22,049 nucleotides of DNA, taken from the IMG/VR virus record IMGVR_UViG_3300028925_007187, positions 1 to 22,049 of that record, one strand, 5' to 3'. Numbering within the stretch: the first letter of the stretch is position 1; each line of letters opens with the position of its first letter. The position numbers and the translations under genes are program-made. Below the pieces are notes generated by a model. That model was not told the DNA's origin and searched no databases. It was given only the letters and a program-made list of their open reading frames with translations. Of this stretch, positions 7,159-10,262 are shown one piece after another. This DNA comes from a virus.

Positions 7159-9450
7159 ATGACTAAAGTGGAAGAGTATTGCGAGAAGCTGGGCTGGTAT
7201 CTAGTTACGATACCCGCTGGCACAAAAGGCCCAACCCGTTTTGGCTGGCAGAAGCCAGAGCAGGCACTGAGCGATCCAGAAACAGCGCGTCTGTATTACG
7301 AGCAGAACCCCACCCATAATGTGGGGCTGTTGCATGGGGCGTCTGGAACCTGTGCAGTGGACATCGATCATGTCGAATACACCAAGCTGATCTTTGAAGA
7401 ACTGGGCATCGATTTCTCAGAGCTAATGCAGTCGGCCCCCCAGATTATTGGGCGCGAAAATCGTGGCAAGTTAATCTTCAAGGCACCGCCCGATTTAATC
7501 ACCCATAAAATTAGTTGGCCCGTCGAGGGCGATCCGCGCAAGACCGAAGTGGTCTTTGAGCTACGCGCTGGGGCCGTGCAGGATGTGCTGCCGCCATCAA
7601 TTCACCCAGATACGGGCCGTCCTTACGAGTGGTCTGGTCGTTCAATCTTCGATGGTCTGCCAGAGCTACCGCCGCAACTTTTAACAATCTGGAGGGAGTG
7701 GGATAAATTTCGGCCACAGATGCAATCCATATGCCCGTGGCGGCGTGAGCCAGAATTTCAGCCACCGCGCAGGCCAAGACCAAAGGGTGACGGCACCAGC
7801 GTGATCGACGCCTTCAACGAGGCGCACGATATGCACAGTTTATTAATCCAGTACGGCTATAAACAAACCGCCAAAGATCGATACCTGTCGCCCAACAGCA
7901 CGTCCAAGCTGGCAGGCGTCAAAGTATTTGAGGATGGTCGCGCCTTCAGCCACCATGCCAGTGACCCGTTTGATTCGGCCCACAGCTTCGATTGCTTTGA
8001 GCTATGGACGCAGTACGAACACACGGGAAACGTCACTAAGGCGGTCAAAGACGCCGCTGCGTTCTTAAACGTGACCAACAATCCAGATTACGAATATGAT
8101 CAAGAGGCCATTGAGCATGGCGCAAAGGTTGCGGCATCAATTATGTCCAAGCCAGCAGCCAAGGCCGAGCCGCTGGGCAATATCCCAGATCATCTGCTGT
8201 CGATCCCCGGTGTCTTGCAGGACGTGGTCAATTATTATTCGATCACCGCCATCAAGCCGCAGCCGCAGTTTGCCGTCCAAGCGGCCATCGCCTTTGGCTC
8301 CACAGTAATGGGCAGGCGCTGGGTGACAAACCAGCGGAACTTCTCCAGCTTGTATCTGCTCAACATTGGTGAGACAGGCAGCGGCAAAGAACACAGCAAG
8401 ACCGTATTGGAGCGGCTGCTGGAAGAGGCTGGACTGGAAGACCTGATAGGGCCAGCGGGGTACACGTCTGGTGCAGGGGTGATGTCCACCCTGACCAAGA
8501 AGCCAGTTCACGTCAGCGTGATCGATGAGATGGGCCGTATGCTCAAGTCAGCAGCGGCCACGGGGATGCAGCACAAGGCTGACGCTCTAACCAGTATAAT
8601 GGAATGCTTCGGGCGCACAGACGGGGTCATGCGGCAGGCTGGATACGCAACCAACACAATGAAGGCGTCTGAGGCCGAAAAGTTGGAGAAGGTGGTGAGG
8701 CGTCCATCCCTGACGCTGGTGGGCATGTCCACGCCATCAGAATTTATGAAGGCAATCGGAGGGGGCGATGTGGCGTCTGGGCTGCTGAACAGGTTCCTGA
8801 TCGTGAAAACCGATATTGGCGTCCAGCTATCGCAGGAAATCACAACGTCTACAATTTCAGAGCGGCTGAAGTCTTGGGCCACTGATCACGCCCACGCCGT
8901 TAACGGGACGTTAGACCCCGGCTCCACGCACGATGTGCCGCCATCCCCAATGGAGGTCAGCTTCACACCAGAAGCCAAGGCGATCCTACGGCGCTACGAG
9001 GAGCGGCTGGTTGACGCCATTAGGGCAGAGGCAGGCACGGGGCTGGAGGCCATGTACAATCGCTCCAGAGAGATCGCCATGCGCCTGTCACTGATCATTG
9101 CCAGGTCAATGGGACAGGAAAGTATTGGCCTGGATGCGATGCAGTGGAGTATCGATTACGTCGAGCATTACGCCACCGAAACCATCAAGATGTTTAAGGC
9201 CAATATGGCTGATGGCCCCTTTGATGCAGCCTGCAAGGCAGTGTTTGCCAAGATCGAAGGCGCGGGGCTGGGGGGCATCACTGAGAGCCAGATTACCAGA
9301 TCGGTAGGGGCATTCGCAAATATGGATCGGCGCAAGCGTGCAGATGTTCTGGACGCTCTGGCGAATGATCGTGGCATAGAGTGCCGAAACTTAAACGAGG
9401 GCAAGCGGGGCCGTCCGACGATGGCTTGGTTTGCTCCAAGCATCCAATAG
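7159..9450 (+). CDS. Primase-helicase: Prim-Pol domain fused to a DUF3987-like ATPase
   Basis: A 763-aa two-part replication protein. The N-terminal 180 residues are a bifunctional primase/polymerase (Prim-Pol, AEP) domain. It carries the metal-binding 'AVDIDH' (Asp68, Asp70), 'FELRAG' (133-138) and 'VLPPSIHPDTGRPYEW' with His149. A middle region (about 215-305) links it to a helicase-type ATPase with Walker A GETGSGKE (404-411), Walker B 'VSVIDEMG' (452-459), a sensor strand 'LTLVGMSTP' (518-526) and an arginine in 'SGLLNRFL' (540-547). The C-terminus (about 690-763) looks like a winged helix. It probably primes and unwinds phage DNA, standing in for separate primase and DnaB. No DNA polymerase gene is seen in the window, so the Prim-Pol domain or a host enzyme may do synthesis. 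It starts 13 bases after the HTH gene. Confidence 0.92.
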   Translation: MTKVEEYCEKLGWYLVTIPAGTKGPTRFGWQKPEQALSDPETARLYYEQNPTHNVGLLHGASGTCAVDIDHVEYTKLIFEELGIDFSELMQSAPQIIGRENRGKLIFKAPPDLITHKISWPVEGDPRKTEVVFELRAGAVQDVLPPSIHPDTGRPYEWSGRSIFDGLPELPPQLLTIWREWDKFRPQMQSICPWRREPEFQPPRRPRPKGDGTSVIDAFNEAHDMHSLLIQYGYKQTAKDRYLSPNSTSKLAGVKVFEDGRAFSHHASDPFDSAHSFDCFELWTQYEHTGNVTKAVKDAAAFLNVTNNPDYEYDQEAIEHGAKVAASIMSKPAAKAEPLGNIPDHLLSIPGVLQDVVNYYSITAIKPQPQFAVQAAIAFGSTVMGRRWVTNQRNFSSLYLLNIGETGSGKEHSKTVLERLLEEAGLEDLIGPAGYTSGAGVMSTLTKKPVHVSVIDEMGRMLKSAAATGMQHKADALTSIMECFGRTDGVMRQAGYATNTMKASEAEKLEKVVRRPSLTLVGMSTPSEFMKAIGGGDVASGLLNRFLIVKTDIGVQLSQEITTSTISERLKSWATDHAHAVNGTLDPGSTHDVPPSPMEVSFTPEAKAILRRYEERLVDAIRAEAGTGLEAMYNRSREIAMRLSLIIARSMGQESIGLDAMQWSIDYVEHYATETIKMFKANMADGPFDAACKAVFAKIEGAGLGGITESQITRSVGAFANMDRRKRADVLDALANDRGIECRNLNEGKRGRPTMAWFAPSIQ

Positions 9451-9462
9451 GGGGAGCGAGTT

Positions 9463-9894
9463 ATGAATAATTATGTGCAGGTTATCGCAGGGCTTGTCGT
9501 GTTCTACGTCGGGCTGAAGATGTTTGCAGGGGGCATGAAGTCTATGGCCGTGCCTACGCACTTAAACTACTGGCTCGGCCATCCGCTGTGGATGTTTGTA
9601 GGCGGAATAGTTTTGACGATGCTGTGGCAATCGTCGTCACTGAGTACAACGGCAATCGTTGCGTTGGTTGCCAGTGGTGTAGTTCCGCTGCCAGCCGCCG
9701 TGGGGTTCATTTTAGGCGCAAATATTGGCACCTCCGCCACCGCCCACATCGCCGCCGCTATGGTCAGTGGGGGATATCCAAGCGGTGATGCGATGCGTAT
9801 CGCCGTAGTGCATACATTAGTAAACTGCCTGATGGCAGCATCACTGCTGCCCTTCGTCCATCACATCGCGAGGCTGGCAAGCAGGCTGGGATGA
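9463..9894 (+). CDS. Half-size Na+/phosphate cotransporter-like membrane protein (Na_Pi_cotrans repeat)
   Basis: A 143-aa hydrophobic protein with one copy of the PNaS (NptA/SLC34) repeat. It has 'QSSS' at 56-59 within helix 44-74, 'GANIGT' at 85-90, and the later 'AVVHTLVNC' helix that matches 'a..H..FN' of the family (His117, Asn121). Hydrophobic spans are about 7-25, 44-74, 77-101 and 111-133. Complete NptA-type transporters carry two such repeats in inverted orientation plus more helices, so this is about one half. It could homodimerise into a transporter, modify a host transporter, or have lost transport. Phage genes for phosphate uptake (pstS, phoH) are well known as marine auxiliary genes, but this family is not the usual one. 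GGGGGAG precedes the ATG, 12 bases after the primase stop. Confidence 0.85.
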   Translation: MNNYVQVIAGLVVFYVGLKMFAGGMKSMAVPTHLNYWLGHPLWMFVGGIVLTMLWQSSSLSTTAIVALVASGVVPLPAAVGFILGANIGTSATAHIAAAMVSGGYPSGDAMRIAVVHTLVNCLMAASLLPFVHHIARLASRLG

Positions 9895-10010
9895 TTAACT
9901 GCATGAATTACTGCATCACTAAACATTGGGGTATTTGTCAATGATTTCAACGGGTTATGTATTTTGTGTATTTTCTGCATTTATTGCGACACCTTGGGGG
10001 CGTCTATACT

Positions 10011-10064
10011 CCTCACCCTCCACCCCCCCCCTCATACATAGGTGGGGGTAGGGGGTGGGGGGGG
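10011..10064. repeat. C-tract/G-tract pair with G-quadruplex potential
   Basis: A C-rich stretch (10011-10032, with a run of nine C) is followed after eight bases by a G-rich stretch (10041-10064, runs of 2, 5, 5 and 8 G separated by single T or TA). The two can pair imperfectly into a hairpin. Alternatively, the G strand could fold into a quadruplex, since the eight-G run can supply two of the four G-tracts. No U-run follows, so it is not a standard terminator. Confidence 0.7.
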
Positions 10065-10075
10065 CAGTAATACAC

Positions 10076-10117
<42 letters not shown>

Positions 10118-10140
10118 AACAAGGTACTTAGGGCAGTCTG

Positions 10141-10170
10141 ATTTATTGCATTTACTGATCTGCAATAAAT
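10141..10170. repeat. Perfect 10-bp inverted repeat ATTTATTGCA / TGCAATAAAT
   Basis: The two 10-base arms (10141-10150 and 10161-10170) are perfect reverse complements with a 10-base spacer. A further ATTTATTGC lies at 9979-9987, giving three copies of the word in the gap. The centre-to-centre distance of 20 bases, two helical turns, suits binding of a dimeric protein. No T-run follows the second arm, so terminator activity is unlikely. Confidence 0.75.
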
Positions 10171-10206
10171 AAGCAAAAAATAAAGTAAATAATTTATCGA
10201 TGGCCC

Positions 10207-10239
10207 TTGATATATCCGTAAAAGTATCTTATCTATAAT
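10207..10239 (+). promoter_or_regulatory. Candidate promoter for the middle rightward operon
   Basis: A perfect -10 hexamer TATAAT lies at 10234-10239, and the 71-aa gene starts at 10263 with GGGAGAG between them. The best -35-like word, TTGATA at 10207-10212, is 21 bases away, longer than the normal 16-18. The promoter may therefore rely on the -10 element or on a phage activator, for which the sigma4/alpha-CTD-like protein of this operon is a candidate. Confidence 0.5.
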
Positions 10240-10262
10240 TGTAGAAACAGGGAGAGACGAAC

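Follow-up and report, generated by a model that had tools for sequence, protein, structure and literature searches.

Results

A half-size PNaS gene downstream of a phage primase

The window (the whole stretch of DNA analysed, a 22,049-base viral fragment that is also the complete source record) carries an intact open reading frame on the plus strand, running from an ATG at 9463 to a stop codon ending at 9894 and encoding a product of 143 amino acids. This product is related to the Na+/Pi cotransporter-type (PNaS) proteins, and it is the single PNaS match in the whole record. The features of the locus are as follows.

7159-9450, plus strand: upstream gene for a primase/polymerase with a DUF3987 helicase, 763 aa (PF09250, E=1e-19; PF13148, E=1e-17; phrog_3022)
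9451-9456, plus strand: ribosome-binding site GGGGAG, read from the sequence, 6 nt 5' of the ATG and directly 3' of the upstream gene's stop codon (9448-9450)
9463-9894, plus strand: half-size PNaS gene (PF02690, E=1.1e-15; SLC34A2a, E=2.7e-20; 56-67% identity to half-size genes of other virus contigs)
9469-9540, plus strand: predicted TM1, aa 3-26 (AlphaFold2 model), with the conserved GL-x2-FY-x-GLK-x-F-x-GG
9583-9672, plus strand: predicted helix pair, aa 41-55 and 58-70, with QSSS at the turn (AlphaFold2 model; element lengths match both repeats of a two-repeat model)
9628-9639, plus strand: QSSS motif, aa 56-59, invariant in 68 members
9715-9741, plus strand: GANIGT-x2-T, aa 85-93 (GANIGT, aa 85-90), invariant in 68 members
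9811-9825, plus strand: H-x3-N motif, aa 117-121, in the last helix, with H117 and N121 invariant

The half-size gene follows the primase/polymerase-helicase gene on the same strand after a gap of 12 nt, and co-transcription of the two is probable. The packaging and portal genes of the window are 76% identical to those of Roseobacter phage CRP-901, in which no homologue was found and a hypothetical gene, gp10, adjoins the primase. The source phage is uncultured and probably marine. Its likely host group, the Roseobacteraceae and their relatives, carries full-length PNaS (Na/Pi symporter) genes on plasmids. A defence-system role for the half-size protein was considered and dropped, as PADLOC gave no match for it.

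On the 3' side, the gene is followed by a non-coding gap (9895-10262) with a C-rich/G-rich inverted stretch at about 10020-10070 and then AT-rich inverted repeats at 10076-10117. This gap had no match in Rfam and could be a replication origin or a regulatory hub.

Family membership and conserved motifs

The window protein scored 58.3 bits against the Pfam family Na_Pi_cotrans (PF02690), for which the cut-off is 29.1, and the same cut-off was exceeded by all 28 half-size virus records searched. In the match to zebrafish SLC34A2a (9z60), the two repeats of the transporter scored equally against it (43.0 bits for repeat 1 versus 42.8 bits for repeat 2). The two inverted repeats per chain that define the cellular PNaS architecture are absent, the window protein being one repeat, and against the model of SLC34 proper (NCBIfam TIGR01013) it reached 47.7 bits, below the full-length cut-off of 306. 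The claim of the first-pass annotation, that a phage here encodes a single PNaS repeat whereas cellular forms carry two inverted ones, was borne out by the comparisons with PF02690, with SLC34A2a and with two-repeat proteins. The family goes unrecognised by the phage family library PHROGs v4, whose profiles gave no match to the window protein and a best value of E=0.007 among the 68 members.

An alignment of 68 half-size representatives contained 46 invariant columns at a mean column identity of 83%. The spacing from QSSS to GxNIGT is fixed at 25 aa in the family and is equal in the repeats of SLC34A2a, and the H-x3-N motif lies within AVVHTLVNC (aa 114-122). By alignment, residues Q417, S418, S419, T451 and T454 of the Na2-Pi-Na3 region of human NaPi-IIa, together with N227, correspond to the invariant Q56, S57, S58, T90, T93 and N121, a correspondence counted from published residue numbers (PMC6325988) and motif alignment, with no structure used. 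The Na1-associated residues T200, Q206, D209 and D224 of NaPi-IIa are not conserved in the half-size family, the position of D224 being T118. Phage-specific changes were also seen in TM2, which reads GTIW in most members and GTSATAH in the window protein.

Predicted structure and inventory of parts

AlphaFold2 produced a confident model of the window protein with a pLDDT of 91.7 and a pTM of 0.84, in which TM1 is followed by a short helix, then the helix pair that turns at QSSS, then TM2 and finally a long TM3. A two-repeat relative modelled in the same way (pLDDT 81) showed the same order of elements in each repeat, with hairpin helices of 15 and 13 residues, identical to those of the half-size protein. 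We infer that the helix pair in the model is a re-entrant hairpin, a reading based on the finding that the two cellular repeats have loops of opposite charge.

QSSS, GANIGT and H-x3-N each occur once in the half-size protein, in an SLC34-like order, so two copies would supply the inventory of a whole transporter. In SLC34A2a an H-x3-N helix follows each repeat. Among 26 two-repeat proteins, this helix was absent from repeat 1 in 25, present after repeat 2 in 25 and found again at the C end in 22. In the bacterial YjbB-type PNaS proteins (L205-L252 and other two-repeat loci), the H-x3-N layout looks like a permutation of that in the SLC34/NptA type.

A fold search with the half-size model gave no significant match (best 9x2m_F, a sorbitol PTS protein, E=0.16, TM 0.46). 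The two-repeat control model found no PNaS structure in the same kind of search either, so the fold is probably missing from that library, and nothing can be concluded from the lack of a match.

The half-size form is standard in virus contigs

A search for the short form in other phages, proposed in the first-pass annotation, found it to be the standard form in virus contigs. Scanning IMG/VR with the pattern T-x3-QSSS-x25-G-x-NIGT returned at least 120 loci; among the pattern matches listed, 108 of 111 complete ORFs were single-repeat (142-214 aa as called) and three were two-repeat (561-582 aa). A profile scan extended this to at least 580 related virus stretches. A single-sequence scan of viral contigs with exact 8-mers, a seed too specific for this purpose, gave no match. 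Of 188 half-size ORFs, among which some contigs are represented twice, 187 have 87-89 aa between QSSS and the stop codon, and the median dN/dS was 0.065 over 370 pairs; the family is under strong purifying selection.

These results dispose of the idea that the gene is what remains of a broken or decaying two-repeat gene, or a contig artefact, which we regard as scarcely credible: cellular genes are indeed two-repeat, but the hundreds of relatives, their equal length and fixed C-terminal end where checked, and the purifying selection rule out decay, so this refutation, put forward in the first-pass annotation, fails. The suggestion that the gene represents an unusual route was not supported, since the half-size form is common in uncultured phages and PF02690 genes have been reported from phages before (PMC9038755).

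The gene was single copy in 28 of 28 virus records and in 19 of 19 records of 37-88 kb (some common to the 28). No second half-repeat gene was seen elsewhere in the records tested, which reach 88 kb, the window itself being a fragment; with one copy per record, no second half was seen as a partner.

Neighbouring genes varied widely, which indicates that the half-size gene is present in unrelated phage groups. ThyX was encoded within six genes in 35 of 152 contexts, and other neighbours were DnaB, primase, DNA polymerases of two unrelated kinds, integrase, MazG, ribonucleotide reductase (RNR) and T4-like head genes, with genes of replication and nucleotide metabolism frequent. The contigs are likely of marine origin. 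Metabolic genes near half-size PNaS genes (set A2) included those for an ammonium transporter (PF00909), a PnrA-like binding protein (PF02608) and ribonucleotide reductase.

Occurrence in cells and in other phage sets

Across 84,980 bacterial and archaeal species genomes, a scan with two exact motifs, which would miss divergent half-size genes, found four relatives, one of them half-size and the rest two-repeat. The sole half-size match (L123) is 59% identical and lies on a contig of uncertain origin in a Chloroflexi MAG (NAT137); it was the only strong match among 151 genomes of Chloroflexi, and the contig could be of mixed origin or a phage placed in the wrong bin. The neighbours of L123 are IMP dehydrogenase-like and isocitrate lyase-like genes and phage-like small genes. 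For another phylum, 59 genomes were examined, and almost every PF02690 match exceeding the cut-off fell in a two-repeat ORF; one 222-aa frame was at a contig end. No close relative was found among 50,697 phage genomes, a set that may leave out the records nearest the window; matches in Listeria and Staphylococcus 'phage' records were of low identity, and each such record was hit at two places, as would be expected of two-repeat genes. Among the sequences scanned, half-size PNaS is a virus-associated family nearly absent from cells.

Origin of the single repeat

When repeat sequences were placed in a tree, the half-size proteins grouped in a separate clade next to the cellular repeats 1 and 2. 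Midpoint rooting joined this clade to the repeat-1 side, and constraining the three groups to be clades carried no cost (delta lnL 0.2); the roughly 95 columns of the alignment are too few to settle deep rooting. We rejected an origin by simple truncation of either repeat of the sampled cellular proteins: the tree places the half-size proteins beside both and inside neither, with closeness to repeat 1 compatible (the AU test was indecisive). The family may be of the unduplicated ancestor type or an old, diverged single repeat. The parallel with an unduplicated ancestor drawn in the first-pass annotation is a possible one and fits the tree. Being found in hundreds of virus contigs and almost never in cells, the half-size gene may be a living example of the transporter before its halves fused.

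Loop charges and topology

In cellular PNaS proteins the loop corresponding to aa 26-41 is positive in repeat 1 and that corresponding to aa 102-112 in repeat 2, which is what inverted repeats require. The corresponding loops of half-size proteins both carry almost no net charge, and the C-terminal tail carries about two K/R throughout, so the window's form is not exactly balanced. This form is near neutral and has no N-terminal extension, and about half of the family bears a lysine-rich N-terminal extension, mostly of net +3 to +6. The extension appears to be translated, since Leu -7 and Val -3 are conserved despite variation at the third bases, and its charge would favour an N-in orientation and speak against simple dual topology in that subgroup. 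Positive-inside analysis allows dual topology in the window's form and gives a mixed picture across the family, given the N-in bias of the lysine-rich subgroup.

In virus contigs L036, L104 and L158, for example, the start region has a conserved K-x-L-[WIY]-K-K-V-x-K-M-[DE]-L and looks translated. Many members with the extension also have an AAAGG-like Shine-Dalgarno sequence 5' of an internal ATG, and dual starts are possible in this subgroup.

Discussion

The gene at 9463-9894 is, on the evidence of its sequence and conserved motifs, a complete single-repeat member of PNaS, belonging to a virus-associated family of its own and holding one copy of every element that cellular transporters have twice. 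Our best inference for its function, to which we give slightly less than an even chance, is that it forms an antiparallel homodimer that moves phosphate with Na+. Two copies would insert in opposite orientations, and the inverted pair would form a pseudo-two-repeat elevator transporter with two QSSS hairpins, two NIGT-x2-T segments and two H-x3-N helices. Such a dimer could carry phosphate, or a similar anion, together with Na+ into the infected cell, where the imported phosphorus would feed phage DNA synthesis. Transport would probably be electroneutral because the Na1-site residues are absent, and this is the weakest step of the proposal.

The family match, the prevalence of the half-size form in virus contigs, its fixed C-terminal end, the purifying selection, the single copy per record, the inventory of parts, the equal scores of the SLC34 repeats, the separate clade, the stand-alone fold, the invariant site residues and the near-zero loops all speak for this proposal, as do the neighbouring ThyX, DNA polymerases, DnaB, RNR and MazG genes. 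Against it stand the lysine-rich extension of about half of the family, the two or so K/R of the C-terminal tail, the unconserved Na1 residues and the full-length PNaS genes of Roseobacteraceae and relatives, whose products might be the partner of the half-size protein.

Other arrangements could account for some of these observations. First, a dimeric transporter or channel of the PNaS fold might act on another substrate, such as another anion, or as a Na+ leak. The unconserved Na1 site and the phage-specific changes in TM2 fit this idea, and to our knowledge many bacterial PNaS homologues are without proven phosphate transport; it is nevertheless unlikely, as every residue that aligns with the Na2-Pi-Na3 region of NaPi-IIa is invariant. 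Second, the half-repeat might pair with a two-repeat PNaS protein of the host, or replace one of its repeats, and so block, open or redirect it. Plasmid-borne symporters in the likely hosts would provide the target, and the N-in bias of the lysine-rich subgroup suits a partner better than a dual-topology dimer. We consider such modulation quite unlikely, however, because invariant substrate-site residues are needless for a mere blocker and because the unrelated phage types that carry the family would each time need a compatible host protein. Finally, and a shade less probable again, the protein could form a parallel or higher oligomer of fixed N-in orientation, as the apparently translated extension of about half of the members would allow; the cellular relatives combine two inverted repeats (PMC6325988) and the window's form has no extension, both of which argue against a fixed orientation.

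Returning to the antiparallel homodimer, a larger claim would be that this virus-specific transporter is also the surviving or re-evolved counterpart of the pre-duplication SLC34 ancestor, and that one gene of the lysine-rich subgroup could even yield two isoforms of opposite orientation through an internal start preceded by a Shine-Dalgarno sequence; taken as a whole, we find this tentative and on balance doubtful. The usual view is that transporters with inverted repeats arose from dual-topology dimers of single-repeat proteins, and few transporter families are known to have living single-repeat forms. With a half-size PNaS family borne by viruses, common in uncultured phages and almost missing from cells, the state of the SLC34 lineage before duplication would become open to test. 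For phages, it may offer a Na+-coupled route, beside pstS and phoH, to raise the phosphorus supply in infection. In the open-licence literature searched, the half-size nature of these proteins, their abundance in viruses, their near absence in cells and the structural consequence appear to be undescribed.

The general idea of a phage PNaS protein for phosphate uptake is not new. According to the available part of one report, PF02690 genes occur in eight subgroup I HMO-2011-type phage genomes and were proposed to aid phosphate uptake (PMC9038755). Like our probably marine contigs, these marine phages carry PF02690, and ThyX, present within six genes in 35 of the 152 half-size contexts, is frequent in HMO-2011-type phages; the size or repeat number of the genes is not described in that part of the account. 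They are possibly of the same family as the half-size genes, a likeness drawn from description and not from compared sequences.

Compared with the SLC34/NptA-type transporters (PNaS, TC 2.A.58, PF02690, TIGR01013), the half-size protein is homologous over nearly its full length to each repeat, has QSSS, GxNIGT and HxxxN in the same order at similar spacing and keeps the aligned Na/Pi-site residues, but has one repeat in place of two inverted ones, does not conserve the Na1 residues and has no terminal domains. Proteins of the YjbB/TIGR00704 type consist of two repeats and a further C-terminal region; their repeats are both homologous to the half-size protein (about 16-56 bits each), whereas the latter has one repeat in a separate clade, and in the YjbB type repeat 1 lacks the HxxxN helix, which comes again at the C end. 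EmrE/SMR (PMC4560821) and Fluc (PMC3755343) are not PNaS proteins, and we claim no sequence relation to them. Their dual topology rests on experiment, and the principle we propose here is the same, namely one small protein that inserts in two orientations to form an antiparallel dimer.
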